Of a DNA stretch of 41,049 bases, positions 15,144-41,049 are shown one piece after another. Under the pieces are notes generated by a model, which made no database searches, was not told where the DNA came from, and was given only the letters and a program-made list of their open reading frames with translations. Within the stretch, counting starts at the first letter, position 1. Each line of letters starts with the position of its first letter. This stretch comes from Bacillota bacterium (GTDB lineage: Bacteria > Bacillota > Bacilli > Alicyclobacillales > SLC66). The stretch is taken from the NCBI GenBank assembly GCA_021846165.1, contig JAJZCL010000002.1, positions 1-41,049 of the forward strand, in the 5' to 3' direction. The translations under genes were made by a program, and so were the position numbers.

Positions 15144-15739
15144 CTAGGTCAAGAAACGACGCTGGACTTTTTTCCCGTCGCAGGTAAAAAGAATTGGTCG
15201 CCCGTCCAGTTGCGTTTCTAGGCTAACCCCCCTGCCCCACAACTTTTGTACGTAGGGCAGGGTTCGCTCCGTGTACTTCGCATCAAGCTCCACGCCCTCA
15301 TACGAGTGCCATAATGACAGCTCTCCCGATAGCGGATCAGGATTGGCTTTGACATAGATCACCGGGTACCCGCCGTTGGTGCGCGATTGCCAGAGCGAGT
15401 CGCGGATTTTCTCGAAGTCCGTTTCGACGACCTTCCACTCACTTCCCACTTTTTGATATACATACAGATCAAGCTCTTCGACAAGTTCTTTGGTCAGGTA
15501 ATTGCGCAGAAACGAACCGTCCGACTCGCTCGCGCGCACCTCGAAAATCTTTTCCGGATCAGCATAGCGGCGAGCGATGTCTTCCCACATTTTGAGTCCG
15601 ACCAGATACGGGTTGACGACAGTTTTCGAGGGCAACACGACACCCGCATGCATCCTCGCAAAATCCAGGTACTCGTCGTCCTCCAGCCCCATCTCGCGCA
15701 TCATGCGCAGGTGCCAATACGTTGCCCACCCTTCGTTCA
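15144..15739 (-). CDS. spoVR: spoVR exon 3 (C-terminal segment)
   Basis: NEGWATYWHLRMMREMGLEDDEYLDFARMHAGVVLPSKTVVNPYLVGLKMWEDIARRYADPEKIFEVR is SpoVR C-terminal; begins abruptly inside the conserved MNEGWATYWH motif. Confidence 0.93.
15726..15739. repeat. att core copy of element E (left)
   Basis: CCACCCTTCGTTCA, identical 14-mer at 18627-18640 in direct orientation. Confidence 0.85.
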
Positions 15740-17164
15740 CTTGACACCGTCAGATCGCAACTGGATTTGCAAGCCATCGTCAATGACGCTTGCCGCCTCA
15801 ACAAACCCTTCGATCCACGTGCGCAGGTTCGCCTCCGACAATAACGCGAACGCAGTTGACACATCGAGCGCCGTTCGCACCGCCTCGTTCGCCACATGCG
15901 CCCTGCGCACGGCCTCCGCCTCCCAGGCGACAAGCGTACGGTTCCACTCTTCCCTCTGCGCCGCCATCTGCTCACGTTCCTTTTGCCACCGATTTGCATC
16001 GATCCCCCCAGCGACATACGCCCGCAGCCATCTCTCCTCGCGCCGCTCGCACTGACGCAGGCGCTTGTGCAGGCGCTGGCGCACCACCTCCGCGCTGTCC
16101 CGCCACTCGACCCGCACACGGCCTATCTGCACCGCTTGAAACAACTCCGCAAGCCCCTCCAAAAACGCAGCCTCTACGTCGTCAGCCGCGATTGCCTTCG
16201 CCCGGCAAACGCCTCCGCTGCGCCGCGCCGCACATCGGTACACGCGGCGCAGACCACGGGAACCCGCCGTTCCGCCATACATGCGACTGTCACATAACGA
16301 ACAGCGCAACAACCCAGACAGCAGGTGCCGACGACGATCCGCAACGCCTGTACTCGCGCCACGCGCTGCGCGTGCCTTGGCCAGTGCAAACTGCCCGTCA
16401 TCAATCAGCGCAGGGTGCGCGTCTTTCGCGACAATTGCCACTTGGTCTCGATTCCAAACCACCGTCCCCGTGTACACAGGGTTGGTGAGGATTTTTTTGA
16501 TCGCGTTGCTCGACCAGGTCTTTTTTTCCCTGGACGCTACGCCCTCTTCATTCAAGCGCCCGGCAATTTGATAGTATCCAAGATGTTCTTCTATAAATAG
16601 AAAAAAAACCTTTCGCACCACGGCGGCCTCGCCTTCGTTCACCACCAGCACCTTGGCGTCCAGCCGGTACCCGTAAGGCGGTCTCGCCAACCACCTGCCG
16701 GACTTCGCCGCATGCGCCATGTTGTCAATCACCCGCTCGCGGATGCGTTCGCGCTCAAACTCAGCGACAGCGCCAAGCACCTGCAACGTCAGGCGCCCAG
16801 ACGGCGTCGCCGTATCAAACGCCTCACTCGTCGATACCAGCGCTACGTGTTGGGTTTCGAGCAGTTCTATCAGGGACAAAAGATCGAGCAGTCGGCGGCT
16901 CAGCCGATCCAGCTTGGTCACGAGCAAACGGGCAAACGGTTCGTGTTGCAGATCATCAAGCAAACGAGAGAGCGCGGGACGGTGCAGGTTTTTGCCGGAG
17001 TACCCGTCATCGATATACAGGCGCAGGTTCGACTCGCGATCCCACCCCTGCGCGGCGCAGTAAGATGTCAAACGCGACTGTTGCTCGGAGAGGGACACCC
17101 CCTCATGCGCCTGTTCGTCTGTGGACACGCGACAATACAGCGCGATATAAGTGATTGTCGTCAT
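15737..17164 (-). CDS. large serine recombinase 1 (element E)
   Basis: IALYCRVSTDEQAHEGVSLSEQQ resolvase domain; YIDDGYSGKNLHRPAL; recombinase domain; zinc ribbon CSLCDSRM..YRCAARRSGGVCRA. Confidence 0.95.
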   Translation of the reverse strand: MTTITYIALYCRVSTDEQAHEGVSLSEQQSRLTSYCAAQGWDRESNLRLYIDDGYSGKNLHRPALSRLLDDLQHEPFARLLVTKLDRLSRRLLDLLSLIELLETQHVALVSTSEAFDTATPSGRLTLQVLGAVAEFERERIRERVIDNMAHAAKSGRWLARPPYGYRLDAKVLVVNEGEAAVVRKVFFLFIEEHLGYYQIAGRLNEEGVASREKKTWSSNAIKKILTNPVYTGTVVWNRDQVAIVAKDAHPALIDDGQFALAKARAARGASTGVADRRRHLLSGLLRCSLCDSRMYGGTAGSRGLRRVYRCAARRSGGVCRAKAIAADDVEAAFLEGLAELFQAVQIGRVRVEWRDSAEVVRQRLHKRLRQCERREERWLRAYVAGGIDANRWQKEREQMAAQREEWNRTLVAWEAEAVRRAHVANEAVRTALDVSTAFALLSEANLRTWIEGFVEAASVIDDGLQIQLRSDGVK

Positions 17165-18626: not shown

Positions 18627-18640
18627 CCACCCTTCGTTCA
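18627..18640. repeat. att core copy of element E (right)
   Basis: CCACCCTTCGTTCA, direct repeat of 15726-15739. Confidence 0.85.
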
Positions 18641-19247
18641 TGATTTTCGTCTCCAATTGTGGCCAAAAATACAGCATTTCTTCACGCAACACGGTAAGGA
18701 TGTCGCGTTGCCAATCGGTAAGCGCTGGGCTGTGGTGGATAAGGTACAATAACAGATCTTTTTCCCACACCTCGGCGCGACCACTCACCGTGTCGGTTTT
18801 TGTCGACGACACTCGATCGTCGAGCGCGAGCAGGTCGTCATAACGCCCCTGACGTTCTTGCGCCACGCTACCGCGCTTTGCGCGATCGGCCGGATTTTGT
18901 TGGGGGCGGCGACGCGCCGTCAACGACGGGTCGATGTGTTCTTGCACCGCGAGCGCCGCGTCGAGGAACGACTCCACCACGTCTTTCCCGTACTGCATTT
19001 CATATTGATGGAAACGCTCGCCGCTCGCCGCCATGCGGTTGACCACGTCTCTTGGCGTCGGCGCGAACAGGGCGTTGTTTTTGAAAAAATCTGCGTGCGC
19101 GAGAACGTGAGCGGCGACCATCAGGTTCTGGACGTACGAATTGCTGTCGAGTAAAAACGCGTAACACGGATCAGCGTTAATCACCAGTTCGTAAATCTTG
19201 CTGAGCCCCAGGTCATAATCCATTTTCATCCGATAAAACGCTTTACC
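18627..19247 (-). CDS. spoVR: spoVR exon 2 (middle segment)
   Basis: GKAFYRMKMDYDLGLSKIYELVINADPCYAFLLDSNSYVQNLMVAAHVLAHADFFKNN...ETKIMNEGW; conserved SpoVR core. Confidence 0.95.
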
Positions 19248-19519: not shown

Positions 19520-20941
19520 GTGCAAACCGCCCTTTATGCCCGCGTGTCTACTGACGAACAGGCGCAACAAGGGTTTTCGATCGACAGTCAAAAAGAGCGC
19601 CTTGCGGCTTACTGCCTTTCGCAAGGGTATGCAGGCTATGACTTTTACGTCGACGACGGCTACTCAGGCACCAACCTGAAGCGACCAGCGCTGCAGCGTT
19701 TGCTTGACGACATCCGCGTGCGCCGGGTCGACGCCGTCATCGTGTACCGCCTTGATCGCCTTGGCAGGCGGCAAAAAGATGTGCTGCACCTGCTCGAAGA
19801 CGTGTTCGAGCCGTTTGCGGTCACCTTTAAGAGCGTCACCGAACCGTTTGACACCGGCACGCCATTCGGCAGGGCGATGATCGGGGTACTCGCCGTGTTT
19901 GCGCAACTGGAGCGTGACACGATCATCGAGCGCACAACGCTTGGCAGGCGGCAACGGATTCGTTCCGGCCTGTGGCCGGGCGGGCGGGCGCCGTTTGGCT
20001 ACGAGTGGCGCAAAGATGAACAAGCGCTTTGCCCCATTCCCGAACAGGCGTCGCTCGTTCAGGCAATCTACCAGCGTTTTCTGCGCGGCGAGTCCTTGTC
20101 CGCGCTCAGTCGCTGGATCGCGTTGCGCAGCGCGGAGCGCAAGTGGACGCACAGCGCGATTCGCTTGATTTTATCGCGTCCCCTCTATGCGGGTCTGCTC
20201 GTTCGGCAGGAGGAAACGGCGCTCCAGGGTCGGCACATGGCCATCATCGACGCGGACACCTGGCGCGCCGCGCAGGCGGAACTGGCGCGGCGCTCAAGCG
20301 GCGTTACCGCAACAGGGGGGTATTTGCTCAGCGGCTTACTCCAGTGCGGGGTCTGCGGCAAAAGGGTGATCCACTTCCCTTATCAGGTGCGACGCGGCAA
20401 CCGCGTGTACCGCTACGAGTACTACGGCTGCCAAACGCAACACAGCCGCCAGGTTCAACAGACCGTTTCTTGTTCACTTGGTTTTCGACGCAAGGAAACC
20501 TTAGAGGCACAGATTACCGACGCGCTTTTTACGATCACCTTTACGCCCACCGAAATTGCGCACGTTCTCGCCGCTCTGACAAAGGCGGCGAACACAAGCG
20601 ACCATGCGGCTCTGCGCCAGCGGCTCGCCGCGAGCCAGTGCAAGGTCACGGTACGACGCGAACGCTGGCTCGCGGCCTACGAGGCGGGCGTCATCAGCAC
20701 AGAAGAGTTGGCCGCAAAGCTCGCGCCGCTTGACAGCGAGGCGAGCGTCATCGCGCTGCGACGCACCGAACTCGCAGACACTCCTTTGGCAACGGAGGAA
20801 CTCAATTTTTACCCTGATCTGATCCGTAAGGCCTGGCCTTACCTCACGCACGAAGAGCAAAGGTCGGTGATCCGCCTTGCCATCCGCAACGTGACGCTAC
20901 GCAAAGACCAACTCACGATCAACTGGAACCTAGCGACCTAA
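19520..20941 (+). CDS. large serine recombinase 2 (element D)
   Basis: TALYARVSTDEQAQQGFSIDSQKERLAAYC..YVDDGYSGTNLKRPALQRLL; zinc ribbon CGVCGKR. Confidence 0.95.
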   Translation: MQTALYARVSTDEQAQQGFSIDSQKERLAAYCLSQGYAGYDFYVDDGYSGTNLKRPALQRLLDDIRVRRVDAVIVYRLDRLGRRQKDVLHLLEDVFEPFAVTFKSVTEPFDTGTPFGRAMIGVLAVFAQLERDTIIERTTLGRRQRIRSGLWPGGRAPFGYEWRKDEQALCPIPEQASLVQAIYQRFLRGESLSALSRWIALRSAERKWTHSAIRLILSRPLYAGLLVRQEETALQGRHMAIIDADTWRAAQAELARRSSGVTATGGYLLSGLLQCGVCGKRVIHFPYQVRRGNRVYRYEYYGCQTQHSRQVQQTVSCSLGFRRKETLEAQITDALFTITFTPTEIAHVLAALTKAANTSDHAALRQRLAASQCKVTVRRERWLAAYEAGVISTEELAAKLAPLDSEASVIALRRTELADTPLATEELNFYPDLIRKAWPYLTHEEQRSVIRLAIRNVTLRKDQLTINWNLAT

Positions 20942-23195: not shown

Positions 23196-23196
23196 C

Positions 23197-24863: not shown

Positions 24864-24928
24864 TTGGGAACCACCTTTAGATGTTGAACAACCATTGTCG
24901 TCAATTTAAGCAAACATAAAAATCCATT

Positions 24929-25552: not shown

Positions 25553-25723
25553 TGTTTAAATTGACGACATTGGATCAAAAATAGGTTCTTACTCACCGAC
25601 GAAGATAAATGCTATGGATAGGTGTAGGCATGGCTGTTTCTACTTCATGTCTCTGTGATTCTTGGAATGCGCAGAGGCAACCGTCCGACCGAATTCGGTT
25701 TTTTCACTAGTCGTCGATTCCTC

Positions 25724-25902
25724 TTACCGAATGACCAGTGCGAAAAACGCGTCGGCATTCCCTGGTACGCCCCCAAAGTGTAAAGAATTTCTGCAGGCAC
25801 CAGTTCGAACCGCATCGAAAAAAAATCCAGTCCCAAAGACCGAGCAATGATGCCCACTTGTTCCAGCGCTGTTGCAAATTTGGCGCGTTCCTCACGATTC
25901 AC
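25724..25902 (-). CDS. spoVR: spoVR exon 1 (N-terminal segment)
   Basis: GTG start after [65 protein letters not shown] is the SpoVR N-terminus, ending in the conserved HWSFGK motif. Confidence 0.93.
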
Positions 25903-26055
25903 TTCGCCCCCCCACCTCCACTTGGGAATGATTCCTGAAAAGCGCAGAGAGCGCCAGATACACATCGCTTTTTTCGCGAATGATGGCTTTGCGAAACCGT
26001 GGATTTTGCATGTGTCGGTACGCACTCATCAGTGTGGATGCGCGGTTATATTGAT
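25892..26055 (-). CDS. yhbH: yhbH exon 3 (C-terminal segment)
   Basis: [53 protein letters not shown]; characteristic YhbH/DUF444 C-terminus; stop overlaps spoVR GTG start. Confidence 0.9.
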
Positions 26056-26263
26056 ATCACTGTGCATGATGTACACGATCCAAATGACAACTTCGTTGGT
26101 GTCGGGAGGCATGGGTTACAAACTCCGTTGAACACCGTCATACTGGCAGAAATCACTTTGATGATTCAATTTTTTGCGGATCGTACCGCCCAGCATGCTT
26201 GATGACGCGATCTCCGATCGCAATACTGATGGTATCTGGGCAACTTACCAAGTAAACTTCGCG

Positions 26264-27616: not shown

Positions 27617-27631
27617 AGGTTTCGCGCCCCT

Positions 27632-29587
27632 CTACGAATGCTTGACCGGCTTTGTGGAAGCAGTTGCGGATGTCGCGGTCTTGATCGACACTTGTGGCGT
27701 CTTAGGCGTCGGTGCCAGCGTGCTGCTGTACTCGGCGAAATACGCGTCGATCACCTCCTGCCCGAGCGGCGCCGCCGCCGTAAAGCCTTCGCCTGCAACG
27801 TCGGGAATCACAACGGCAATCGCGATTTTCGGTTTGTTATAGGGCGCGTATCCGACAAACACAGAGTTGTTGAGTCCGGGCGTGCCGGATTCGGCGGTGC
27901 CGGTTTTTCCCGCCACATTGATCGGGTCGTTGCCAAAATAATAAGTGGCGGTGCCTAGCGACCCGTGTGTCGCCAGTTCCAGCCCTTGCTGAATGATTTT
28001 CAAGTATTGCTGACTGACAGGAACTTTATCCATAAGATGCGGTTGTATCACTTTGATGACTTTGCCTTTCGGGTTGGTGATCTCATGCACCACTTGCGGT
28101 TGATATCGATACCCACCATTGGCAATCGCGGCGATATAAGTACAAAGACCGATGGTAGAGTACGCCTCCTCCTGGCCGATCGCCGCCGCTGGCAGGTCAT
28201 AAAGAGTCGGCGGGTTCGCGTACGTGACATAACCCGGCACCTCGCCTGGCAAATCCACGCCAGTAAGCGTGGTGAGACCGAATTTTTTCCCCATGTCATT
28301 CAACTGGTTAAGCGCCCGCACACGACCGCCGTACAACCAGGCATTGATGTTGGCTGGGGGATTACTTGTATTAAAGTGACCCAAATTAAGGCCAACTTGG
28401 TAAAAATACGTGTCGTCTGAAACCTCGATCGCCTCTTTTAATCCGACCCAGCCGAAACCGCCAAGATTCCAGTTGTGCATATAGTAGGTGCCGATTTGCA
28501 GACCGCCCCGGTCATCCACCAACAAGTTAGGCGTCATTTCATGGTGGCTTAATGCCGTCAGTGCTGTCAGCATCTTCTCTGTCGAGCCTGGCATATAAAG
28601 GCCGGAAATGGCTCGATTAAACCCTGCGTCATTGTTCAAATACTGCTGATAGTGCTGATTCGAAATACCGCCAATCCACCAGTTGGGGTTGTACGTCGGA
28701 TAGCTCGCCATCGTCAGCACGGCACCGGTGTGTACATTCATCACTACCACCGTTCCCGAGCTTACAGCAGGCATGCCAGAATTGCGTAAAAATTGGATCC
28801 GCGCGATCAAATCCTGCGCTGCAATTTTTTCCAGCGGCCCGTTAATGTTGAGGACGAGGTTATCGCCCGCTTTGGCAGGAATTCCAACGATGCCTTGATT
28901 TAAAGGAATGCCTGCTGGCGAAACTGGAATTTTCTCCTCGCCGTATGAGCCTTTAAGCACATTCTCGTAGGATTGCTCAAGTCCTGACAACCCCACCTGC
29001 GCATCCTTAGGGTAACCTGTACTTTGGTATTGGCTCCACTCGTTGGCTGGAATGGGGCCAATGAACCCCAACTCGTGCGCAGCCAATTCCCCCTGCGGAT
29101 AGACCCTCTGCGGTACTGTCATCATCAACACGCCCGGCAAGTCGTCGCGATGCTCAGCAACAAATGCCATTTGCTCCTGTGTCGCTTTCGCCGCCAGCGT
29201 CACCGTCGGTTGCAAAGGGTTCTGGTTGATCATGAGGTTCTCAAGTTTGGCTGAGCTTAGACCCAAAACGGGCGCCAATTCTTTCGCCACATTCGCTGCC
29301 GAGAGCGTGTCATTGGGATAACGAATATACAATATTTGGTATACAGGAATATCCGCCGCGAGTACATCGCCCGCGCTATCGTATATCCACCCGCGCGACC
29401 CAGGAATCGGCAGAGAACTGTAGTTTTGCGTCGCAACATCCGTTTGGAACTGCTGCGCTTCAGTGATCTGCAAATATCCCAACCGCACAATCAGCGTTGA
29501 CGTCGCGAGTACCGCCGCAAAAAAAAGCTGTTGTACGCGCTTGGACGTTTTTAGCTGTAGCTTTTTTCGTTGATTATTGTCCGTCAC
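27632..29587 (-). CDS. class B penicillin-binding protein (PBP2-like transpeptidase)
   Basis: SGLYMPGSTEKMLTALTAL (SxxK-type region), VAGKTGTAESG (KTG box), N-terminal TM and dimerisation domain. Confidence 0.9.
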   Translation of the reverse strand: MTDNNQRKKLQLKTSKRVQQLFFAAVLATSTLIVRLGYLQITEAQQFQTDVATQNYSSLPIPGSRGWIYDSAGDVLAADIPVYQILYIRYPNDTLSAANVAKELAPVLGLSSAKLENLMINQNPLQPTVTLAAKATQEQMAFVAEHRDDLPGVLMMTVPQRVYPQGELAAHELGFIGPIPANEWSQYQSTGYPKDAQVGLSGLEQSYENVLKGSYGEEKIPVSPAGIPLNQGIVGIPAKAGDNLVLNINGPLEKIAAQDLIARIQFLRNSGMPAVSSGTVVVMNVHTGAVLTMASYPTYNPNWWIGGISNQHYQQYLNNDAGFNRAISGLYMPGSTEKMLTALTALSHHEMTPNLLVDDRGGLQIGTYYMHNWNLGGFGWVGLKEAIEVSDDTYFYQVGLNLGHFNTSNPPANINAWLYGGRVRALNQLNDMGKKFGLTTLTGVDLPGEVPGYVTYANPPTLYDLPAAAIGQEEAYSTIGLCTYIAAIANGGYRYQPQVVHEITNPKGKVIKVIQPHLMDKVPVSQQYLKIIQQGLELATHGSLGTATYYFGNDPINVAGKTGTAESGTPGLNNSVFVGYAPYNKPKIAIAVVIPDVAGEGFTAAAPLGQEVIDAYFAEYSSTLAPTPKTPQVSIKTATSATASTKPVKHS

Positions 29588-29853
29588 GATTTACACCACG
29601 TTTAGTTTTCTATCGAACCCCATTGTACCGAAAGCAGGCCGTATATTCCTGATGATAATCTGAATACACTGTTCAATGATCATATCCACACAATGTTCAT
29701 AAACGAGCATGCGAAAACATTGACAAGCTTACCCTTTGTGATAAAATTTGCCTTGACGTTTGGTACGAACCATGCGGAGAACTCATACTTACGCGGCGGG
29801 CTCCTTGCTGATCAAGGCGTTCGTCGCGTTTCCATTTTGTGGCGCACAAAAAT

Positions 29854-29881
29854 GAGCTGCCGTGACATTCATCGGCAGCTC
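29854..29881 (-). terminator. Rho-independent terminator after the SDR gene
   Basis: Minus strand GAGCTGCCG..CGGCAGCTC followed by ATTTTTG. Confidence 0.7.
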
Positions 29882-29898
29882 TACTGTAGCTATTTTCG

Positions 29899-30639
29899 CT
29901 AAAACGTCAACCCACCATCGACGCTCAATATGGCGCCGTTGACAAAGCTGGCCTCGTCGGACGCAAGGAACAGGTACGCATTTGCAATATCCTCAGGCTG
30001 CCCGATGCGACGCAGTGGCGTCTTCTCCGTCATCATTGTCAGGATTTTTTCCGGCATTTTGTTCGTCATCGGCGTCATCACAAACCCAGGCGCCACCGCA
30101 TTGACACGAATACCCTTCGGACCAAGCTCTTTCGCCCAAGTCTTGGTCATCCCCACCACACCAGCTTTAGTCGCCGCATAGTTGGTCTGACCGATGTTCC
30201 CGAATAACGCCACCACGGAAGCGGCATTGAGAATGACGCCGCTTTTCTGCTCCATCATCACTTTGGCAGCCGTCTGTGTGCAATAGAACACGCCTGTCAT
30301 GTTGACGGATAGCACTTGATCCCACTTGGCGGGATCCATCTTCACCAAAAAACCGTCTCTTGTGATGCCCGCATTATTAATCAAAATATCGAGTTTAGAG
30401 TTCTTTTCAATAACGGTATCAATCATCTGTTGCACTTCATCTAAATTACTGATGTTGGCTTTGACAAACTCTACCTTAATGCCTTCTTGACTAAGTTCTT
30501 GGACGACCTCGTTCCCAATGCCTTCATCAATATCAGCAATTATTACCTTGGCGCCATTTTGCGCGAACAACTTTGCCGTCGCTTTGCCAATACCGCCAGC
30601 ACCGCCAGTGATTAACGCGGACTTTCCCTGCAATCTCAT
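29899..30639 (-). CDS. 3-oxoacyl-ACP reductase FabG-like SDR
   Basis: MRLQGKSALITGGAGGIGKATAKLFAQNGAKVIIAD; YxxxK active site NYAATKAG. Confidence 0.9.
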   Translation of the reverse strand: MRLQGKSALITGGAGGIGKATAKLFAQNGAKVIIADIDEGIGNEVVQELSQEGIKVEFVKANISNLDEVQQMIDTVIEKNSKLDILINNAGITRDGFLVKMDPAKWDQVLSVNMTGVFYCTQTAAKVMMEQKSGVILNAASVVALFGNIGQTNYAATKAGVVGMTKTWAKELGPKGIRVNAVAPGFVMTPMTNKMPEKILTMMTEKTPLRRIGQPEDIANAYLFLASDEASFVNGAILSVDGGLTF

Positions 30640-30643
30640 GACG

Positions 30644-31144
30644 CTACACACCTTTACCGGCGCGTGACCAATCTCTTAGGTCATCGTTCATCAGTCGAAA
30701 AAACACGCGCTGTTGATTTTTTAAAGACTCTGTCATGTTGTCGTGCATACTCCAAAAATAACTGGTGTACTCATCACTTGACTTTTCTGCTTCGTCACTG
30801 CGATCGATCCAAGTGCGGTCGATTTTGTCAAATTGACCGAGAAAAAAATGCACTGGAGTCAAGGCGATTTCCTGGTATTTTTCTGCCACTTTCTTCAGTG
30901 ATTCATTCCCGCCAAAAATCATCTCATTGCCTTTTTGCACCGCTTCATGGTACACCTGCTCTGTCTGCTGACGACGATCCTGCACCCATTTGCGTGCATC
31001 GCCGTACGTTTTGCGCCACAAATCGTTGTTCACATTTGACTTGCGAGCATAAGCCACGAGGGCTTCATAAGGACTCCATAGCATATCCACGAAAGCGTCG
31101 CTCACCGTTTGCGACTTTTCAACCGTCTTCACTTCGCTCATCAT
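30644..31144 (-). CDS. phasin-like protein of the PHA locus
   Basis: MMSEVKTVEKSQTVSDAFVDMLWSPYEALVAYARKSNVNN; helical, PHA operon context, GGAGG SD. Confidence 0.65.
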   Translation of the reverse strand: MMSEVKTVEKSQTVSDAFVDMLWSPYEALVAYARKSNVNNDLWRKTYGDARKWVQDRRQQTEQVYHEAVQKGNEMIFGGNESLKKVAEKYQEIALTPVHFFLGQFDKIDRTWIDRSDEAEKSSDEYTSYFWSMHDNMTESLKNQQRVFFRLMNDDLRDWSRAGKGV

Positions 31145-31163
31145 TCCGCCTCCTCTAAGTTTG

Positions 31164-31559
31164 CTACTTCTCATCCCCTTCATTATTAAAAGGGAAAAGA
31201 TAGAAATCAAACATTTTTGAGTACATTTCAAAAAACTGCTTCAAAATGTCCTGATACTTTTGCAGCTGGTCAGCATACGTCTGCAAGTACTGCTCCCCCA
31301 CCTCGGTGAGCGAATAGAGACGCTTTGCCGGTCCGCTGGATGATGTGTCCCACTCGGAACAAACATAACTTTCCTTTTCGAGTTGACGCATCATCCGGTA
31401 AAAATTCCCTTGGTCAATCGTTCCGAACCCGATGGCGCCGAGTTGATGCATTAACTCGTAGCCGTGAACAGGAACGTTGCGCAAAAGGAGTAAAATATAC
31501 GGAACCAGCAATTCCTTCCCTGCTCCACCTACACCTACTTGGGGTTTCTCTTGTGCCAT
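31164..31559 (-). CDS. phaQ: PadR-type regulator, PhaQ-like
   Basis: LLVPYILLLLRNVPVHGYELMHQLGAIGFGTIDQGNFYRMMRQLEKESYVCSEWDTSSSGPAKRLYSLTEVGEQYL; PadR winged helix next to phaC. Confidence 0.75.
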   Translation of the reverse strand: MAQEKPQVGVGGAGKELLVPYILLLLRNVPVHGYELMHQLGAIGFGTIDQGNFYRMMRQLEKESYVCSEWDTSSSGPAKRLYSLTEVGEQYLQTYADQLQKYQDILKQFFEMYSKMFDFYLFPFNNEGDEK

Positions 31560-31650
31560 CCCCATCACCCTCTGACTCATACATGTAGTTTACACTTATA
31601 TGCTTGATTTGTACACCCTTTTTTGAAAAAAATTTTTGTGTTCCCCACGC

Positions 31651-31691
31651 AAAAAGACCGCCCGCCAATCCATGATGATTGGCGGGCGGTC
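31651..31691 (-). terminator. Rho-independent terminator after phaC
   Basis: Minus strand GACCGCCCGCCAATC-ATCATG-GATTGGCGGGCGGTC followed by TTTTT. Confidence 0.85.
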
Positions 31692-31712
31692 TCAATCCCT
31701 GTATCCTGCAAA

Positions 31713-32819
31713 TCAGTCGTGCTTGGCGAGCCAATCCGCAGTTTCTTGATACACTCGTTTTCTTGCAACGCCGCCAAAGACAAGGCTGACGTGTCCCACT
31801 GGGTAGTTGTGTTCTTCCTTGTCCTCGCTGCTGATGTAATCAAACAGCGCCCGCGTCTGATCAACTGGCACAATGTGATCGTGTTCCGCTGTCAGGATCA
31901 ACACAGGGCACTCGATTTTCGCAAGATCTACCGCTTGATCCCTGAGCATAATCTCGCCATTAATTAACTTGTTGTGCTGATAAAAGTTGTGAATCCATTC
32001 CTTGTATGTCTGTCCCGGAAAATCCGTGCCGTCATTCGCCCATTTGTTGAGTAAGCGCCAATTGTGTACAAAGTGATCGTCATCCACTTTTTCTAATAGG
32101 CGCACCCACGGGTTGACAAAGTTTACCATCGGCTTCAGCATCTTGTTGCCGAAGTCAATCAAATACGAAGGAACGTTGCCGAATGTATCGACTAGTTTAT
32201 CCACATCAAAATAGCTTTCGCTAAGCCAATTGTTGTACAGTTTCGCATGACGGAAATCAATCGGCGCCGCAAGAACCACCAGGTTCTTGATTCGTTCTTG
32301 GAACAAAGCGGTCGTCATGGTACCGATCGTGCCACCCATACAGTAGGAGAACATATTGATTTGATCCTGGCCGCTGTGCGCACGCACCTTATCGATGGCT
32401 TTCTTCAAGTAATCAAGAATGTATTCCGCAAAACCGTTACGGCGATCCTCAATGCCTGCCTCGCCCCAGTCGATCATATAGACATCGTATCCTTGCTTAA
32501 CCAAGGCTTCGACAAACGAGTTGCCTGGTTCCACGTCGAGGATGTAAGGCTTGTTAATCATCGCGTAGACCATCAACACTGGCGTCTTCTTCGTCACCTT
32601 GTAGCCAGGAATGCTGAAGTGATACAACATCGTCTTGTTCTTATGCCAGATCACCCGTTTTGGTGTGAGCCCCACATCCGGTTCCGCTTTATTCATGACG
32701 CTCATTAATTTGCTGTAACGATTATTCCACAAGGGAACCGACAGGTTCTCCTGCTCGGTGTTCAAGCCACCCTCCACCGCTTGGCTCCAGGTTTCGAGCC
32801 AATCTGAGTATAAAGACAT
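31713..32819 (-). CDS. phaC: class IV polyhydroxyalkanoate synthase subunit PhaC
   Basis: INMFSYCMGGTIGTMTTALF (lipase-box Cys), ILTAEHDHIVPVDQTRALFD, YPVGHVSLVFG. Confidence 0.93.
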   Translation of the reverse strand: MSLYSDWLETWSQAVEGGLNTEQENLSVPLWNNRYSKLMSVMNKAEPDVGLTPKRVIWHKNKTMLYHFSIPGYKVTKKTPVLMVYAMINKPYILDVEPGNSFVEALVKQGYDVYMIDWGEAGIEDRRNGFAEYILDYLKKAIDKVRAHSGQDQINMFSYCMGGTIGTMTTALFQERIKNLVVLAAPIDFRHAKLYNNWLSESYFDVDKLVDTFGNVPSYLIDFGNKMLKPMVNFVNPWVRLLEKVDDDHFVHNWRLLNKWANDGTDFPGQTYKEWIHNFYQHNKLINGEIMLRDQAVDLAKIECPVLILTAEHDHIVPVDQTRALFDYISSEDKEEHNYPVGHVSLVFGGVARKRVYQETADWLAKHD

Positions 32820-32874
32820 TATCTTCCCTCCGTAGTAAAAAGCCCTGTGATCAGCCTGTGCGCAAACGCCCGTC

Positions 32875-33648
32875 TTACATGTACATACCGCCGTTGACAC
32901 TCAGTGTTTCGCCGGTGATATAATCCCCGTCGACGGCAAGGAAACGCACGGCTTTGGCAACTTCGTCCGCCTTGCCGAAACGCCCCATCGGAATTTTAGA
33001 AATGACCTTCTCTTGCACTTTTTCCGAAACCACCGCCACCATATCGGTGAAGATGTAGCCGGGCGCTACGCAATTGACCGTTACGTTGTAGCGAGCGGTT
33101 TCGAGCGCAAGCGACTTCGTAAACCCGACCATCCCTGCTTTAGTCGCTGCGTAATTGGCCTGCCCAAAGCCGCCCGCCTGCCCGATAATGGATGCAATGT
33201 TAATGATTCTTCCGTAATTCTGTTCGATCATTTTAGGCAAAAAAAGCTTAGTGAGGTGAAAGACACTGCTCAGATTGGTCGCGATGACGTCGTTCCAATC
33301 CTGTTCCGTCATTTTTACAAACCTCGAATCCCGGGTGATGCCTGCATTATTGACGAGAATGTCTAATTTGCCGTAGGCATTCAACACCTCGTCATAAAGG
33401 CGGCGCACATCCTCGGGATTGCTGACATCACTCTTGATTGCCATGACGTTGGTATGAAAGGCTTGGATATCGCGCACGACTTCATTGGCGCGCTCCTCAT
33501 TCGAAACGTAATTGATGACAACCGTCGCCCCATGCCTTGCCAACTCTTTGGCAATTTCCGCACCAATTCCACGCGAACCACCCGTAACGAGCGCGACTTG
33601 ACCGCTCAGCGCCTTGCCGTGGTTCTGGCTATCTTCTGTGAGTGTCAT
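32875..33648 (-). CDS. phaB: acetoacetyl-CoA reductase PhaB
   Basis: VALVTGGSRGIGAEIAKELARHGATVVINY; between phaR and phaC. Confidence 0.9.
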   Translation of the reverse strand: MTLTEDSQNHGKALSGQVALVTGGSRGIGAEIAKELARHGATVVINYVSNEERANEVVRDIQAFHTNVMAIKSDVSNPEDVRRLYDEVLNAYGKLDILVNNAGITRDSRFVKMTEQDWNDVIATNLSSVFHLTKLFLPKMIEQNYGRIINIASIIGQAGGFGQANYAATKAGMVGFTKSLALETARYNVTVNCVAPGYIFTDMVAVVSEKVQEKVISKIPMGRFGKADEVAKAVRFLAVDGDYITGETLSVNGGMYM

Positions 33649-33679
33649 CTGAACTCACCCCCATGATAATATGCGAGGA

Positions 33680-34159
33680 CTACACTGACTCAGAGTCTGC
33701 TTGATTCCCGTCCGACTCCTCGTTCTCCGCGTTCTCCGTTTGCGAACGACGGCGTGTTCTTGTCGTTCCCTCTCTGGTTGCTTTCTTAGCCAGTTCATTC
33801 ATCGTTTCTTTGCTGAACGTATCGATGCGTTCGGCGATGCCCGCCAGTTGCTTCTCAAGCGACGTGAAGCGGTCATCTAGGTGTTCTTCGAGTTCATCTA
33901 CCTTATTCTCCAAAGCAACGATCATTTCCCCCAAGCGGGCAAAATCCTTGAGTGTCGGAAGTGTGTATGTATGCATCATCTGCTCAAAGGCCTTGACAAA
34001 CTGTTGCTCCATTTGCAAGGTGGTCGACAAAAACTGCCCGGAGAATTCCGCATACTCCTCGCTTTCCAGCCATTTTTGCATAGCCGACGAAACCTTAGGC
34101 TCCATCTCATTATAGATTGATTTCCAAACAGAAAACGGATCTAGAGAATTAGTTTGCAC
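33680..34159 (-). CDS. phaR: class IV PHA synthase subunit PhaR
   Basis: DPFSVWKSIYNEMEPKVSSAMQKWLESEEYAEFSGQFLSTTLQMEQQF..LPTLKDFARLGEMIVALENKVDELEEHLDD. Confidence 0.85.
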   Translation of the reverse strand: MQTNSLDPFSVWKSIYNEMEPKVSSAMQKWLESEEYAEFSGQFLSTTLQMEQQFVKAFEQMMHTYTLPTLKDFARLGEMIVALENKVDELEEHLDDRFTSLEKQLAGIAERIDTFSKETMNELAKKATREGTTRTRRRSQTENAENEESDGNQADSESV

Positions 34160-34439
34160 TGTTGCTGTTTTCTCCTTTCGGCTGAAGAATGTTTAAGATA
34201 CTTTCGAACTGGTCGCGGATGGCATTCTGGGCTTCAAGTTGCTGCGTCCGCAATTTTTCGAGTTGAGCAATATACTGCTCGGTTCCTTGTTGAGTCAACT
34301 GTGACGTTAACTGTTGCGCTTCTTTTTGCGCCCAGCTCAACAAGTCCACAGAGTTGGTCACTGATTCTTTGGCCAAATCGAACAACTTGGTGATGTTCCT
34401 CTGCGTTTGCTCAATAAAGTAATCTGTCACTTTTTCCAA
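34149..34439 (-). CDS. phasin-like coiled protein
   Basis: TTG start after GGAGGG; EKVTDYFIEQTQRNITKLFDLAKESVTNSVDLLSWAQKEAQQL; first gene of the PHA operon. Confidence 0.6.
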   Translation of the reverse strand: MEKVTDYFIEQTQRNITKLFDLAKESVTNSVDLLSWAQKEAQQLTSQLTQQGTEQYIAQLEKLRTQQLEAQNAIRDQFESILNILQPKGENSNSAN

Positions 34440-34626
34440 ACCCAATCCCTCCAAAATGTTTTTGATCGCGATCACGCTGACCGCCGTAAACCACAAAAAA
34501 ACGATATGCGACAGTTCCCTCTTATAGTATATTACGAATTTTATGAACAAGCAAAGGAAAGCGAACACAGCGATGTGCGCTACATAATTTGCCAACAAGG
34601 CGTGTCATTGCAGGTTTTGTTTCGCC

Positions 34627-34866
34627 TCATCGATCTTCAACCATCACCGTCATTTTTTTCGTCGCTTCGACAATTCTGTGAACAATGGGATTTCCCCGCT
34701 CCCATTCGCGCCGCAACCACGCCTGCCGCTGTTTTGCAGTCATCGCCAGAACACCCTCCGGCGAATGCGCGACGATCCGCGTCATCCCCAACATGAACTC
34801 ACGTGTGATCAAAGCAGCCACCTCCCAGTCCACGCTATGCAATGACCGCTTGACCACTTGCACCAA
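34627..34866 (-). CDS. small protein of unknown function, adjacent to and divergent from recombinase 3
   Basis: VQVVKRSLHSVDWEVAALITREFMLGMTRIVAHSPEGVLAMTAKQRQAWLRREWERGNPIVHRIVEATKKMTVMVEDR; coding-like composition. Confidence 0.55.
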   Translation of the reverse strand: MVQVVKRSLHSVDWEVAALITREFMLGMTRIVAHSPEGVLAMTAKQRQAWLRREWERGNPIVHRIVEATKKMTVMVEDR

Positions 34867-34946
34867 GTCGTCTGTTAAAAACCCATAGTCTGGTGCCGTT
34901 GATCATACACATGAACGACAGAAACGATGTGAGAGGAGGCTTTCGC

Positions 34947-36476
34947 ATGCACTACCCGACCGACCTTCACGATGTGGCCATTTACCTGAGAAAAAGCCGC
35001 CAGGACGCAGAAGCGGAAGCGCGCGGCGAAGGGGAAACCCTCTCCAAGCACAAACGCGCGCTCATGCAGGTCGCAAATCAATACGGCTATGCGATCAGCG
35101 CCGTCTACGAAGAAATCGTTTCCGGAGAACGAATTCTTGAGCGACCACAAATGCAGGCGCTTTTAAATGCCGTGCGAGAAATGCGCTATACAGCGGTTCT
35201 TTGCATGGATATCGATCGACTTGGCCGCGGCAACATGATCGACCAAGGGCTGATCCAGGACGTGTTCAAGAGTTCGGGAACCCTCATCATCACCCCCAGA
35301 AAGGTGTATGATCTGCGCGACGAATTGGATGAGGAATGGTCCGAGTTCGAAGCTTTTTTAGCGCGACGGGAATTGAAGGTGATCAACCGCAGACTGCAAC
35401 GCGGTCGACGCCAAAGTGCCGGCGAAGGCAAGTCCATTAGTGCCAGGCCGCCATATGGATACATGCGGGGGGCAGACTTAAAGCTGTCTCCCCACCCCGA
35501 AACCGCCCCGATTGTTCAGTTGATTTTTCGACTGGCTGCCGAAGGGAACGGCACAGGCGCGATAGCCAATTACCTGTCCGACCACGGCATTCAATCCCCC
35601 ACCGGCATGGACACGTGGTTGCGGTCTACCGTACGTTTTATCCTTCACAACCCCGTGTATCGCGGCCATATCGTGTGGGGACGACTGCGCTACCGCAAAA
35701 CGCCAGGCATTCCAGGTTACCGAAAAGAACGCGCCGAACCTGACGAATGGATTCGCCATCCATACGCCCACGAACCCCTTGTGGATGACGCCGCCTACGC
35801 GCTTTACCTTTCACACAAGAAGACCAACACCCGTTCGTCAACCGACAAAGTACTCGTCAACCCACTCGCCACTTTGATTTACTGCGACCACTGCCGCCGC
35901 GCCATGCGTTTCCAGAAAACGTACAACCGCCGCCACAACCGCCTTGTTTGCACCACCCGCCGCTGCCCCACCCGCAGCGCCAGCTTTGCATGCGTAGAGC
36001 AAAAGATCCTTGAATCGCTAGACCTTTTTCTCAGCGACCTAACCATCGAACCGGAGATGAGGAATTCCCGCGATCATAACGATGACGCACTACAGATCAT
36101 CGAGAAGCAAATCGGCAAATTTAACGAAAAAGTCAATGACATGGCAGACCAACGAGGGCGACTTCACGACCTTTTGGAGCAGGGGGTGTACGACGCAAGT
36201 CAGTTCCGGGAAAGGTATCAGGTACTCGTGAACCGAACTGAGGCGCTGCAAAAACAGCTCGCTGCGGCGCTGGCCGAGCGGGATCATTTCACGAAAACCG
36301 CACCCTGCCGCCAAAACGAGGCCCCCGTCAAGGTGATCGACGCCTACGCTGCAGCGCCGACGGCGAGAGCCAAAAACGACCTGCTCAAATCCATCATCGA
36401 GCGCGTCAGCTACCGCAGGGCGCCAGATTGGCGCAAGCCTGATCAATTCGAGCTTGAGATCTTTCTGCACATTTAG
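34947..36476 (+). CDS. large serine recombinase 3 (element C)
   Basis: VAIYLRKSRQDAEAEARGEGETLSKHKRAL..EEIVSGERILERPQMQALL..MDIDRLGRGNMIDQGLI; AGGAGG SD before ATG 34947. Confidence 0.95.
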   Translation: MHYPTDLHDVAIYLRKSRQDAEAEARGEGETLSKHKRALMQVANQYGYAISAVYEEIVSGERILERPQMQALLNAVREMRYTAVLCMDIDRLGRGNMIDQGLIQDVFKSSGTLIITPRKVYDLRDELDEEWSEFEAFLARRELKVINRRLQRGRRQSAGEGKSISARPPYGYMRGADLKLSPHPETAPIVQLIFRLAAEGNGTGAIANYLSDHGIQSPTGMDTWLRSTVRFILHNPVYRGHIVWGRLRYRKTPGIPGYRKERAEPDEWIRHPYAHEPLVDDAAYALYLSHKKTNTRSSTDKVLVNPLATLIYCDHCRRAMRFQKTYNRRHNRLVCTTRRCPTRSASFACVEQKILESLDLFLSDLTIEPEMRNSRDHNDDALQIIEKQIGKFNEKVNDMADQRGRLHDLLEQGVYDASQFRERYQVLVNRTEALQKQLAAALAERDHFTKTAPCRQNEAPVKVIDAYAAAPTARAKNDLLKSIIERVSYRRAPDWRKPDQFELEIFLHI

Positions 36477-36508
36477 CGCGTGACCGGTGACACGATGCGC
36501 AGCTCTAC

Positions 36509-36866
36509 TGATTGATCTCCCCGTACCCGAACAGGTTGCACTCCGTCATCAGCGCTTCCACCAGTTGCACGCAGCGCTCGTTGTCAGACGTCAGGTTGTC
36601 GCCGTCAGAAAAGTGGATCGGGTAAATGTTGTATTCCGCGGGGGGGTACTCGCTGTGTACCAGATCGAGCGCCAACTGGTACGCCGAAGAACAGATGGTG
36701 CCCCCGCTCTCGCCTTTCGTGAAAAACTCCTCCTCACTCACTCGCTTAGCCTCGGTGTGGTGCGCGATGAACTCCATCTTTACTGACTGGTACTTACGGC
36801 GCAAAAACCGCGCCATCCAAAAGAAAAACGTACGCGCGATGTACTTCTCAAACGTCCCCATCGATC
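36509..36866 (-). CDS. yhbH: yhbH exon 2 (middle segment)
   Basis: [119 protein letters not shown]; YhbH/UPF0229 core. Confidence 0.95.
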
Positions 36867-38173
36867 TGCGGAAACGCAAATGAATAAACCACACGCAGCC
36901 CGCGCCCGTCCGCCACGATCTTCTCGACCAGTCGTTGCAACAGGCGGCGCCGCCACCGCTCCCACCGTTTTGCACTCGCAAACACCTGTGCCGCCTCTTC
37001 GTCCCACAGCGCCGCAAGCAAAGTCACCCCGGCCTCATCGCCACACGCCGTACCCCCGACCTCAACGTGCTTGCGCAGGCGATCGATCACCAGTCGTTCG
37101 ACCGTATCCGCAGGCAAACTCGGTTGAGAACACGCCGCCCGCCCTCGTTCGTGGTACGTCCGACAAATGTAGTACCGGTACTCGCGACCGCCCTGCCTGC
37201 GCTTCTGGCAGGTCATTGACCGCCCGCAGCGACCACAGCGCAGCACACCTGTGAGCAAGTGATACGCACGCGGCCCTGCAGGTTGACGCAATCGACGCCG
37301 CGTGCGCTGTTCCGTCGCCGCAGCAAAGTCGGCGTTGCTCACCAGTGCCGGATGAGCGTCCTCCACCACCACCCAGGCGGTGCGCGGATTCGCGGTGCGC
37401 ACCTCTTTTTTCTTGCCGGGAACGTCGCTGTCGTAATCCCGCACGCTTTTGTCCTGACGCCGATTGTACAAAAGAGTGCCCGTATACACCTCGTTTTTCA
37501 GAATGCGTGCCACACCGCTCGCGTACCACGCGCCCCCCGCTTTGGTGGGTATCCGCTCACGATTTAGGCGATCGGCAATTTTACCAGGCCCCACGCCCTC
37601 TTTGACGTACCAGGCAAACACCTTTTGCACAACGCCTGCCCATGCCTCGTCCACCTCCAGTCGCCCCGACGCCCCGACGCGATACCCGAGCGGCGGCGTA
37701 CCGCCTGTAAACCGCCCCGATTTCGCCTTTTCCTTATTGCCAAGACGCACCCGGATGCTGATCTTCTCAGCCTCATACTCGGCAATAGCCGCATGCATCG
37801 TAAAAAGAAAGTTCGAGTTTTCCACATCCGAGTCGTAGTTTTCCTCATACGAAACCACGCGCAGCCCCTTGCTTTGCAGGCGTTCCAACACGTCCAGCGC
37901 TTCGTGCGTGTTGCGGGCAAGGCGCGAGATGCCCTTGAACAGCACCACCCCGAACTTCCCCCGTTCCGCGTCAAAAAGCAATCGTCGCATCGCAGGGCGC
38001 GACCAGATCGAGTACTTTGTCGCCGACACCCCCTCATCCTCATAGACGCAGTCGTCGCGAACGCGCCAGTCCTCTCCTCGCGTGTCCGCGAGTTCACGCA
38101 GCAGCGAAACCTGATGATCGACCGACTCGCCCTGTTTGTCCGTGGAAACGCGCGCATAGATGGCACAGTCCAA
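36848..38173 (-). CDS. large serine recombinase 4 (element B)
   Basis: [50 protein letters not shown]; zinc ribbon [13 protein letters not shown] start at 38173 after an AAGGGGGG SD. Confidence 0.93.
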
Positions 38174-38191
38174 CCCGTTCCCCCCTTGCAA

Positions 38192-38220
38192 ACAGGCGCC
38201 TTCTGCGAGAAGGCGCCTGT
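38192..38220 (-). promoter_or_regulatory. 13-bp perfect hairpin between small ORF and recombinase 4
   Basis: ACAGGCGCCTTCT-CGC-AGAAGGCGCCTGT on the minus strand, followed by TTTGC. Confidence 0.65.
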
Positions 38221-38233
38221 CGATATGAACGAA

Positions 38234-38404
38234 TTATATAGGCGGAAGCGGCGATTCGCGCAGCGCTTGTTCGAGTAGCGGCCACATCGCCTCGCAACCG
38301 AATTCTTCCACCAACTCGTAAGCATTCGCTTGCTTTTGCGCGACTCCCTCCCCTGCTGATTGGCCTTGATCGTCAGACGGTTTCTGCTTCAAAACGCGGC
38401 TCAT
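38234..38404 (-). CDS. small ORF (56 aa) upstream of recombinase 4
   Basis: MSRVLKQKPSDDQGQSAGEGVAQKQANAYELVEEFGCEAMWPLLEQALRESPLPPI; GGGGTG SD. Not in the supplied ORF track. Confidence 0.5.
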   Translation of the reverse strand: MSRVLKQKPSDDQGQSAGEGVAQKQANAYELVEEFGCEAMWPLLEQALRESPLPPI

Positions 38405-38518
38405 CTTACACACCCCGCGTGGGAGGCCATTTGGCGGAACTGCCCTCCTTTGTGCAGATGGTTTCGCCTCCTTGCCATGAAGATATGATGAAGAGGAGTT
38501 GACCCATTCTACCCGCCG

Positions 38519-39787
38519 TTAAAAAATCAGAGCGACCGTGACCATCAGGCCAAAGCCAATCACAAGCAGCGACGTTCCCCACACCGTATACTTGTACCAA
38601 CCGCGCATCCGCCACTCTTGCGGCAGCGCCTTCATTTCCAGCGCCAGTAACATCCCCAGCACAATCGGCAGCAGCATCGCGTTCATGACTTCCACATCCA
38701 CCGACAACCGCACCAGATTGATCGAGGCAATCACAAGCACGGCACCCAAAACATGCGTCAGTATGTAGATAAAGTAAAATAACTTCGCGTCCTTCACCTT
38801 GTCGTTGAGGCTGTGCTTCACCCCAAACGCCTCGCCGATGCCCCACGACCCGGCCAGTGAAACGACTATCGACGCGATAAAGCTGGCGCCGAGCATGCCC
38901 ATGCCGAACACGAAATTAGCGCCGATCGAACCAAGAAACGGAATCAAGCCTGTCGCAATCTGCTGAATCGTGTCTAGGGGACGGTGCGGATCGACGCGCC
39001 CGATCGTCGCGGCAGTGGTGACGATCACCGCGATCATGATCACCTGCGTGAGAATCGATCCCCCCATCGTGTCGAGGCGAGAACTCTTCAGGTGCTTGAC
39101 CTGCACCCCTTTTTCAACGACCGCGCCCTGTTGGTAGAAAATCATCCATGGCATGATCACCGCCCCGACATTAGCCGCGAGCATGTACATGTACTGCGGG
39201 TGATGAAGCGGGATGTTCACGAGGCCGCTCCCGACAGCCCCCCATTCCGGTCTGGCGATGATGGCTGCCGGGATAAAAAACAGTTCAAACAAACCCACCG
39301 CGATCCCTATGCGCTCGACACGCTGGTAACTTCCGGTGATGCCAATCGTGACCAACAAAACGGTACTCACCGACACCGTCAGCCAGGTGGGTAAGCCAAA
39401 GAGCGCCCCGACCCCGGCAATCCCGCTAAACTCCGTCACAAGCGCCCCGACAGAAGCCAAAAAAAGCGTCGCCACCGAAAGCGTTGCCCATCCGCGGCCA
39501 AAGCGTTCACGAATCAGTTCCCCGTGCCCTTTCCCGGTCACCGCGCCGAGCCGCACCGTCATTTCCTGTATGAGAAAGAGGATCGGGATGAGGATGAGTT
39601 GCGGCAAGATCATACGGTATCCCCACACGGCGCCCGACTGCGCCGCCGTGATCACGCTGCCCGCGTCAGTGTCCGCCAGCATGACCATCACACCAGGACC
39701 GACCAGTGCCATCCCGAGCATGAACTTGCCCAAAAGCGAGGCTTGCCTTCCTTCCGTCGGATTTTCCAAACGCTTAAACTGAGCCAT
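38519..39787 (-). CDS. NRAMP-family divalent metal transporter
   Basis: GPGVMVMLADTDAGSVITAAQSGAVWGYRMILPQLILIPILFLIQEMTVRLGAVTGKG; NRAMP TM1-TM2 pattern. Confidence 0.85.
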   Translation of the reverse strand: MAQFKRLENPTEGRQASLLGKFMLGMALVGPGVMVMLADTDAGSVITAAQSGAVWGYRMILPQLILIPILFLIQEMTVRLGAVTGKGHGELIRERFGRGWATLSVATLFLASVGALVTEFSGIAGVGALFGLPTWLTVSVSTVLLVTIGITGSYQRVERIGIAVGLFELFFIPAAIIARPEWGAVGSGLVNIPLHHPQYMYMLAANVGAVIMPWMIFYQQGAVVEKGVQVKHLKSSRLDTMGGSILTQVIMIAVIVTTAATIGRVDPHRPLDTIQQIATGLIPFLGSIGANFVFGMGMLGASFIASIVVSLAGSWGIGEAFGVKHSLNDKVKDAKLFYFIYILTHVLGAVLVIASINLVRLSVDVEVMNAMLLPIVLGMLLALEMKALPQEWRMRGWYKYTVWGTSLLVIGFGLMVTVALIF

Positions 39788-39891
39788 TCTCAAAGCCTTT
39801 CCGATCTCGTTTATGTTTTAATAAGAACAAATTTAAGTATGGAAGTCAAACTCAAAATGTTCCCCTGATGGTTCGTTTGTGTCTTTGCGGG

Positions 39892-40544
39892 GATCCGGAC
39901 GTATCCATCATCGCGATGACCACCGCTTGCGAGTGCGGTTGCTCCATATCCTGCCATGTTTTGTAGCGCAGATCCTCGGTACGGATGGGGCTGGTTTTGC
40001 CTTTGCCGGAAAGCGCGTTGCGCTTCATCGCTTCCAACAAAGTGCGCTTCTTCTCAATGTTGCCCTGCAGCCCCGTCTTGCGGACATCCCTGAATTCGAC
40101 ATCCGGCGAAGTCACGTTGTCGGGCTTTTTTTCTTCCAAATTCGGAAACTCCCAATCGGCAAACAGCACCTCCGCGATCTCGTCAATCGACACGCCGACC
40201 TCGTAATAATCAAGGCCGGGGCGATCCCCGGCACCACCCGCAGCGTTCCCGTGCGCGTCACTGTCGCGGCCAAGTACGTCTCCTGCCTTCGATCCGCCCT
40301 GTCCCTGACCCGCGTGTTGGCCTTTGTCGAAATTAAATCGAAAATGATACTCTTCAAGGGAGCGAATCGGAATTTTGACGATGTTGTGCCCGTCCGTCAT
40401 GATCAGTCCCTCTTCGCTGATCAAATCGGGCAGGTTTTGCCGAATGGCCTCCTTCACTTTTTCGTGGTGCCGCGCTTGATCTTGCTGCCCCTTACGGTGC
40501 AGCGACCAATCGTCCTGACTGAGTGTGAAACGAGGCGTTGTCAT
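39892..40544 (-). CDS. yhbH: yhbH exon 1 (N-terminal segment)
   Basis: FTLSQDDWSLHRKGQQDQARHHEKVKEAIRQNLPDLISEEGLIMTDGHNIVKIPIRSLEEYHFRF...SQAVVIAMMDTSGS; YhbH N-terminus up to the MMDTSGS motif. Confidence 0.95.
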
Positions 40545-40558: not shown

Positions 40559-40945
40559 TCAGCGGTTCAGCAGACTGCCCGTGTACTGCAAAAGTTCATT
40601 CGCGCACACCGCGCAGTACCCGTGATCGTCAATCAAACGCTTGCTTACTTCGTTCAGTTTTTTGAGCTGGTTCTGATCGGGCGTCTTGGAGGACGTGGTG
40701 ATCTTCACAACATCCTTCAGGTCGGCAAACAGCTTCTTCTCGATCGCTTCTTTCAACCGCTCGTGTGACTGGTAATCAAAGCGCTTGCCACGCCTTGCGT
40801 AAGTGGAAATGCGAATGAGGATCTCCTCGCGAAACGGGCGCTTGGCGTTTTCGGAGATGCCAATCTGTTCTTCGATCGAACGCATCAGCCGCTCGTCAGG
40901 ATCAATCTCGTCTCCCGTTACTGGATCTTTGAGTTTATTCCAGTT
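40559..40945 (-). CDS. prkA: prkA 3' segment (serine protein kinase PrkA C-terminus)
   Basis: NWNKLKDPVTGDEIDPDERLMRSIEEQIGISENAKRPFREEILIRISTYARRGKRFDYQSHERLKEAIEKKLFADLKDVVKITTSSKTPDQNQLKKLNEVSKRLIDDHGYCAVCANELLQYTGSLLNR*. Confidence 0.92.
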   Translation of the reverse strand, partial: NWNKLKDPVTGDEIDPDERLMRSIEEQIGISENAKRPFREEILIRISTYARRGKRFDYQSHERLKEAIEKKLFADLKDVVKITTSSKTPDQNQLKKLNEVSKRLIDDHGYCAVCANELLQYTGSLLNR

Positions 40946-41049
40946 TCCCGTACCGGTTCACGCGGTAAACAAACGCCAGTACCTCCGCCACCGCCTCGTA
41001 CCACTCACGCGGGATCACCTGTTCCACTTCGAGCTTCATGAGCGCGTTT
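40935..41049 (-). CDS. FlhB-C-terminal-domain protein (YlqH-like), 3' end only
   Basis: NALMKLEVEQVIPREWYEAVAEVLAFVYRVNRYGKLE*; stop lies on the prkA boundary; 5' part outside window. Confidence 0.7.
   Translation of the reverse strand, partial: NALMKLEVEQVIPREWYEAVAEVLAFVYRVNRYGKLE
40946..41049. mobile_element. edge of a probable fifth intervening element (A) in prkA
   Basis: PrkA homology stops at ~NWNKLKDPVTG and is replaced by an unrelated YlqH-like C-terminus; the other boundary is outside the window. Confidence 0.65.

Follow-up and report, generated by a model that had tools for sequence, protein, structure and literature searches.

The systems closest to the one described here are recombinase-bearing elements that lie inside sporulation genes. 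skin, a defective prophage in sigK of B. subtilis and C. difficile, is excised by its internal large serine recombinase, restoring the frame of the gene (PMC5025042). vrin, a single phage-derived element, lies in spoVR of Geobacillus thermoglucosidasius (PMC4191935), and gin, a 28.6-kb non-phage element with three recombinases, lies in gerE of B. cereus (PMC5595907). Lastly, the prophage-like yin in yabG of C. botulinum is flanked by 14-bp repeats and is excised precisely (PMC10747680). The known intervening elements are located in genes of the mother cell (PMC4191935, PMC6957869), as this cell dies and the spore keeps the element (PMC6957869).

We analysed a stretch of 41,049 nucleotides (the window) in which yhbH and spoVR are each split twice; together with the split prkA, there are five elements in three genes that lie in eight pieces (15144-40945). 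It spans the whole of contig C103 of assembly G000 (1.79 Mb, 129 contigs, 83% complete), and its right edge is thus the end of the contig.

The split prkA gene and its element

The split of prkA in the window is real. The original prediction was that PrkA homology runs clean from the stop codon at 40559 to about 40945 and then gives way to a YlqH/FlhB-C-like C-terminus in another frame. This was accurate within a few bases: PF06798, the PrkA C-terminal domain, matches on the minus strand from 40945 down to the stop codon at 40559-40561 (profile positions 137-255, E 1.5e-46), and 40945-40562 is 84% identical to residues 505-632 of the intact PrkA of a relative (tblastn). PrkA homology ends at 40945, and the minus-strand frame that takes over upstream (40938-41048) translates as NALMKLEVEQVIPREWYEAVAEVLAFVYRVNRYGKLE followed by a stop, the last 37 residues of a stand-alone FlhB-C (YlqH-like) protein (PF01312 positions 313-335, E 2e-4). 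The ylqH-like stop codon, TAA at 40935-40937, is supplied by the DNA of the prkA side, so that the ylqH-like gene ends on the boundary. Nor does an alternative frame bridge the break: inspection of all frames in the window found none for full-length PrkA, and no intact PrkA was found in genome G000. Only 104 bp of element DNA, beyond the junction core at 40940-40945, is inside the window. The features at this end are:

40559..40945, minus strand: prkA 3' part including the stop codon (residues ~505-632; PF06798 and tblastn)
40940..40945, minus strand: attachment-site core AACTGG (attR), from junction comparison of G000 and G002; joining here restores the frame
40935..41049, minus strand: 3' end of the ylqH-like gene of the prkA element (FlhB C-terminal domain; PF01312, 313-335)

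A prkA N-terminal part on the minus strand, ending near CNW, and a serine recombinase had been expected beyond 41049. Both are on another contig of the same genome, C97, where a Pfam search placed the PrkA AAA domain; the element proved smaller than the 5-15 kb suggested for the search. The features there are:

C97:2712-4229, minus strand: prkA 5' part (residues 6-511), ending ...VEAYCNW and then foreign sequence (Pfam search, tblastn)
C97:2727-2732: attachment-site core AACTGG (attL) at the end of the prkA 5' part (junction comparison of G000 and G002)
C97:1337-2665, plus strand: 442-aa large serine recombinase of the prkA element (PF00239, PF07508, PF13408)

The recombinase has resolvase, recombinase and zinc ribbon domains, a motif YLRKSRKD with the presumed catalytic serine, and a PHROG integrase match (E 1e-86). 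Its gene faces the prkA 5' part and terminates, at its stop codon, 61 bp from the junction core. To the left, on the minus strand, are a 66-aa ORF, a 322-aa ORF that we call ylqG/FliK-like from gene order and resemblance alone (neither NCBIfam nor Pfam has a family for it), and the first 37 residues of YlqH, which start at the first base of the contig (C97:1-112; PF01312 262-293). With the YlqH of G002 as query, residues 2-37 match C97 and residues 53-88 match C103, indicating a gap of about 40 bp between the contigs, inside ylqH, and an element of about 2.87 kb. The recombinase gene ends at one boundary and an unrelated gene, the ylqH-like one, ends on the other, a pattern that had been likened to that of another element of the window (element B). 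This is the pattern of an excisable gene-intervening element, and the original interpretation is supported.

The element contains the recombinase, the small ORF, and the ylqG-like and ylqH-like genes only. It has no phage replication, structural or lysis genes, and we do not class it as a prophage. An SCC-type (Ccr) cassette was considered and rejected, with a best CcrB score of 82.7 against the NCBI cut-off of 900 and prkA as the insertion site. Within the family, stand-alone ylqH was found only in G000, G002 and G010. In G010, the ylqG/ylqH-like pair lies in an ordinary genomic context with no recombinase, and searches of that genome for prkA, yhbH and spoVR found none of them.

In G002, a genome of the same genus (94% complete), the whole prkA element (2.84 kb) is on one contig, the counterpart of JAJZCW010000007.1 (Bacillota bacterium isolate JA4.bin15); its four genes, their order and its core match those in G000. 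Because the same split is contiguous in G002, it is due to neither chance nor misassembly. The two prkA-element recombinases are 66% identical. Conservation of the small ORF (66-82 aa) is limited to the two prkA elements (42% over 49 residues, E 9e-10), and the ORF is a candidate recombination directionality factor.

The word AACTGG is common to both prkA halves in the two genomes. Joining the halves at this word in silico gives a PrkA of 632 aa with no internal stop and a gap-free alignment to intact PrkA (492/632 identities). The interruption lies after the codons Asn-Trp, at about residue 510; the predicted word at the joined site is ...TGTAACTGGAATAAACTC... and the predicted circle junction is ...GGGAAACTGGCAAAAG.... 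Protein identity between G000 and G002 is 92% and 96% for the two prkA parts, with dN of 0.047 and ~0.02 and dS of ~1.7-2 or saturated. Low dN with near-saturated dS argues that prkA has been under selection while split; judged by these rates, purifying selection on both pieces is strong in this comparison, in which each genome carries the split. In a third member of the genus (G003), the prkA site is unoccupied (EAYCNWQKLKDP) and lies at a contig end. The prkA of G002 also has an extra split at about residue 138 (G002 C4:115023 onward); from there to the contig end, ICE- or phage-like genes take up more than 19 kb, and the N-terminal part was not found.

Elements in yhbH and spoVR and recurrence of the insertion sites

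The remaining pieces and recombinases in the window are:

39852..40544, minus strand: yhbH 5' part (DUF444; PF04285), the next gene downstream of prkA, ending at core GATC (39892-39895)
36848..38191, minus strand: serine recombinase of the yhbH ~219 element (~36867-39895)
36490..36876, minus strand: yhbH middle part (~213-341)
34893..36476, plus strand: serine recombinase of the yhbH ~338 element (~26050-36510)
25925..26071, minus strand: yhbH 3' part (~329-377)
25708..25908, minus strand: spoVR 5' part (residues 1 to ~62)
19520..20941, plus strand: serine recombinase of the spoVR ~62 element (~19248-25728)
18627..19247, minus strand: spoVR middle part (~62-268)
15737..17164, minus strand: serine recombinase of the spoVR ~268 element (~15740-18640), core TGAACGAAGGGTGG at both ends
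15144..15739, minus strand: spoVR 3' part (~265-477; PF04293)

The cores differ: TGAACGAAGGGTGG for spoVR-268, GGTAA for spoVR-62, GATC for yhbH-219, and an imperfect CARTA for yhbH-338. In silico removal of all elements gives YhbH (386 aa) and SpoVR (~460 aa), each in one frame, and the cell probably has to cut out all five elements before it can use prkA, yhbH and spoVR.

Judged from ORF translations, the other elements carry pdhABC, folC, a penicillin-binding protein gene, an MntH-like or MFS transporter gene, and PHA genes. The spoVR-62 element (19248-25728) has pdhABC-type genes in both G000 and G002, and the translation of 24929-25552 within it resembles a fragment of an IS4-like transposase. 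Two relatives (G021 and G025) have pdhAB directly upstream of prkA. In G000 the yhbH-338 element (26050-36510) contains a PHA synthesis cluster together with penicillin-binding protein and folC genes; its counterpart in G002 is ~5 kb and has no PHA genes.

Across 18 genomes of the family, gene pieces end repeatedly at the same places: ~289 and ~510 in prkA, ~219 and ~338 in yhbH, and ~62 and ~268 in spoVR. Recombinases were grouped by insertion site only, and in a tree of 33 of them each of the six groups forms one clade with 99-100% bootstrap; in a label-shuffle test over all groups, 0 of 200 shuffles gave a value as low. The prkA-510 clade groups with recombinases of Exiguobacterium plasmid and phage and is closely related to the yhbH-338 recombinases; within the window, the yhbH-338 recombinase (34893..36476) is the nearest paralogue of the one in the prkA element. 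Near the recombinase end in the Exiguobacterium plasmid and phage and in a Brevibacillus phage, whose recombinases are 41-50% identical, no prkA-like attP was seen. The second prkA site, at about residue 289, has its own recombinase clade and is used in several genomes of different families (G029, G031 and G158 belong to other families of the class). Among the prkA matches listed from 250 other genomes of the class, most are one open frame of more than 600 codons.

A scan of named genomes found the prkA-510 site occupied in Gordoniibacillus kamchatkensis. A recombinase 52% identical to that of the prkA element adjoins residues 1-510 of PrkA, and the remainder (residues 505-632) is on a separate contig. 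The insertion has genes for a DnaB-like helicase, an SbcC-like protein, tail proteins, holin and endolysin, and by this gene content it is a prophage. Its ends have only AACT in common, at the same position, and the joined frame would read C-N-L-V-K-I-K-D-P.

Two further observations concern prkA sites. Genome G232 (locus L129 1872-12854) has a duplication of yhbH and of prkA 508-632 that starts directly after the CNW site; phage-like genes separate it from the intact copies. We rejected the second prkA copy as another split gene, since it is a partial duplication around phage-like genes, which is possibly a scar of integration at the CNW site. Contig ends coincide with prkA split sites, or fall inside them, in several assemblies, perhaps because the sample was a mixture of integrated and excised forms, or because of repeats only.

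Probable excision in the mother cell and alternative explanations

As is typical of elements of the skin/vrin/gin type, the prkA element lies inside the coding sequence of a sporulation gene, has its own recombinase near one end, and has a short identical word at both ends at which joining restores the frame. We consider it likely that its recombinase excises it in the mother cell and so restores prkA, and that the other four elements behave likewise. We infer excision and its timing from the analogy with sigK/skin, spoVR/vrin, gerE/gin and yabG/yin (PMC5025042, PMC4191935, PMC5595907, PMC10747680). The element is integrated after the Asn-Trp codons at about residue 510. The recombinase, probably helped by a small directionality factor, would cut it out as a circle and reseal prkA in the sporulating mother cell, the cell in which PrkA, YhbH and SpoVR act, and the chromosome of the spore would retain it. 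With other recombinases and other sites, the four yhbH and spoVR elements would act alike, such that five excisions would reassemble three genes. The genus has an intact sigma-K and full-length sigma-E/F/G-like factors. In B. anthracis, PrkA is absent from vegetative cells, appears at sporulation stage II, and is needed for good spores (PMC13001217).

Excision might instead be induced by stress, starvation or a phage-type signal in growing cells, as a reversible 'active lysogeny' with no role for sporulation. PrkA, YhbH and SpoVR also occur together in non-sporulating bacteria as a set of starvation and stress proteins, and thus the trigger could be stress instead of sporulation. The yin element of C. 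botulinum fits such a mode, since the population contained both excised and integrated forms at every time point tested (PMC10747680). However, loss of pdhABC, folC and the penicillin-binding protein gene with the other elements would probably harm a growing cell, and the known examples in this class of genes are restricted to the mother cell (PMC6957869). We regard induction in growing cells as unlikely.

Less probable still is that a mobile island or prophage remnant killed prkA, leaving a decaying pseudogene with no scheduled excision. A full prophage does occupy the same site in Gordoniibacillus, and our scan detected no developmental promoter: searches for sigma-E, sigma-K and sigma-A consensus sequences upstream of ten recombinases found nothing convincing relative to shuffles. 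A stretch of the form GCATATT-N15-TTATGGATGATAG is conserved in the intergenic region upstream of the prkA-element recombinases of G000 and G002 (C97 1270-1330); it could not be matched to any sigma factor. Decay is nevertheless hard to reconcile with prkA pieces that remain 92-96% identical in protein when synonymous sites are near saturation, with recombinases that are intact, site-specific and retained, and with the restoration of all three split genes to full length.

It is very improbable that PrkA works as a split protein with no DNA excision, its two pieces being made separately and then assembling. Both pieces are conserved and an internal ATG opens a 108-aa ORF in the C-terminal part, but the break falls in the middle of a domain (PF06798 is cut at position 137 of 255), prkA is one continuous ORF in relatives, and a recombinase with site-specific ends would be needless. 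Lastly, an assembly chimera or binning error that took prkA fragments from a misjoined contig can be dismissed, since, even though the window is a MAG contig ending inside the element, the identical arrangement is contiguous in G002, which in the main refutes a chimera, and prkA of a cultured species (G. kamchatkensis VKM B-2647) is split at the same codon.

If mother-cell excision is correct, its consequences may extend beyond gene repair. The elements carry chromosomal genes (pdhABC, folC, penicillin-binding protein, ylqGH), and excision would also remove these growth genes from the terminal cell. We tentatively raise the possibility that, in this spore-forming family, prkA-yhbH-spoVR is a multi-part DNA-splicing locus, in which coexisting, vertically kept and site-faithful recombinases all act in the mother cell and the excisions double as a programmed loss of growth genes; of this we are rather doubtful.

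Comparison with known intervening elements

Split spore genes reported in the open-access literature are isolated cases, whereas here five elements with five different recombinases share one cluster. The open-access papers that we searched describe neither a split prkA or yhbH nor a cluster that contains five elements. To judge by these papers, the target genes prkA and yhbH, the very small non-phage element, and the unusual density are new. Across the whole family and beyond, the six insertion sites are used repeatedly, each by its own recombinase clade; this adds at least six serine recombinases, related to one another yet distinct, whose attB sites can be inferred. The five-element insertion also explains the broken look of prkA, yhbH and spoVR in such assemblies.

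The Gordoniibacillus prophage (contig NZ_JXAK01000085.1) shares with the window element the codon of prkA, the recombinase clade, and the way the recombinase is placed and oriented with respect to the prkA 5' part. It differs in being a full prophage with core AACT; the window element has no phage genes and its core is AACTGG. The prkA element is probably a reduced and domesticated relative of prophages at this site that now carries a chromosomal-type ylqG/ylqH-like pair. The natural series at one codon, from full prophage to 2.8-kb reduced element, offers a test of how phage integrases become developmental switches.

Among the established systems, skin resembles our proposal for prkA in that an internal large serine recombinase restores the frame of a sporulation gene. 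However, the sigK gene of this genus is whole, and the prkA element is below 3 kb and free of phage genes. yin is likewise a recombinase-bearing insertion in a sporulation gene but, unlike the prkA element, it is prophage-like, and some of the population has it excised at any time. gin is similar to the prkA element in its non-phage nature, its own serine recombinase and its small non-phage proteins, with a direct repeat of 9 bp compared with 6 bp here; its size, its three recombinases and its target set it apart, as does its experimentally demonstrated excision. vrin is also a recombinase element within a mother-cell sporulation gene, and its target, spoVR, is split in our locus too. Whereas vrin is one element in one gene, here spoVR contains two, and the adjacent yhbH and prkA are split as well.
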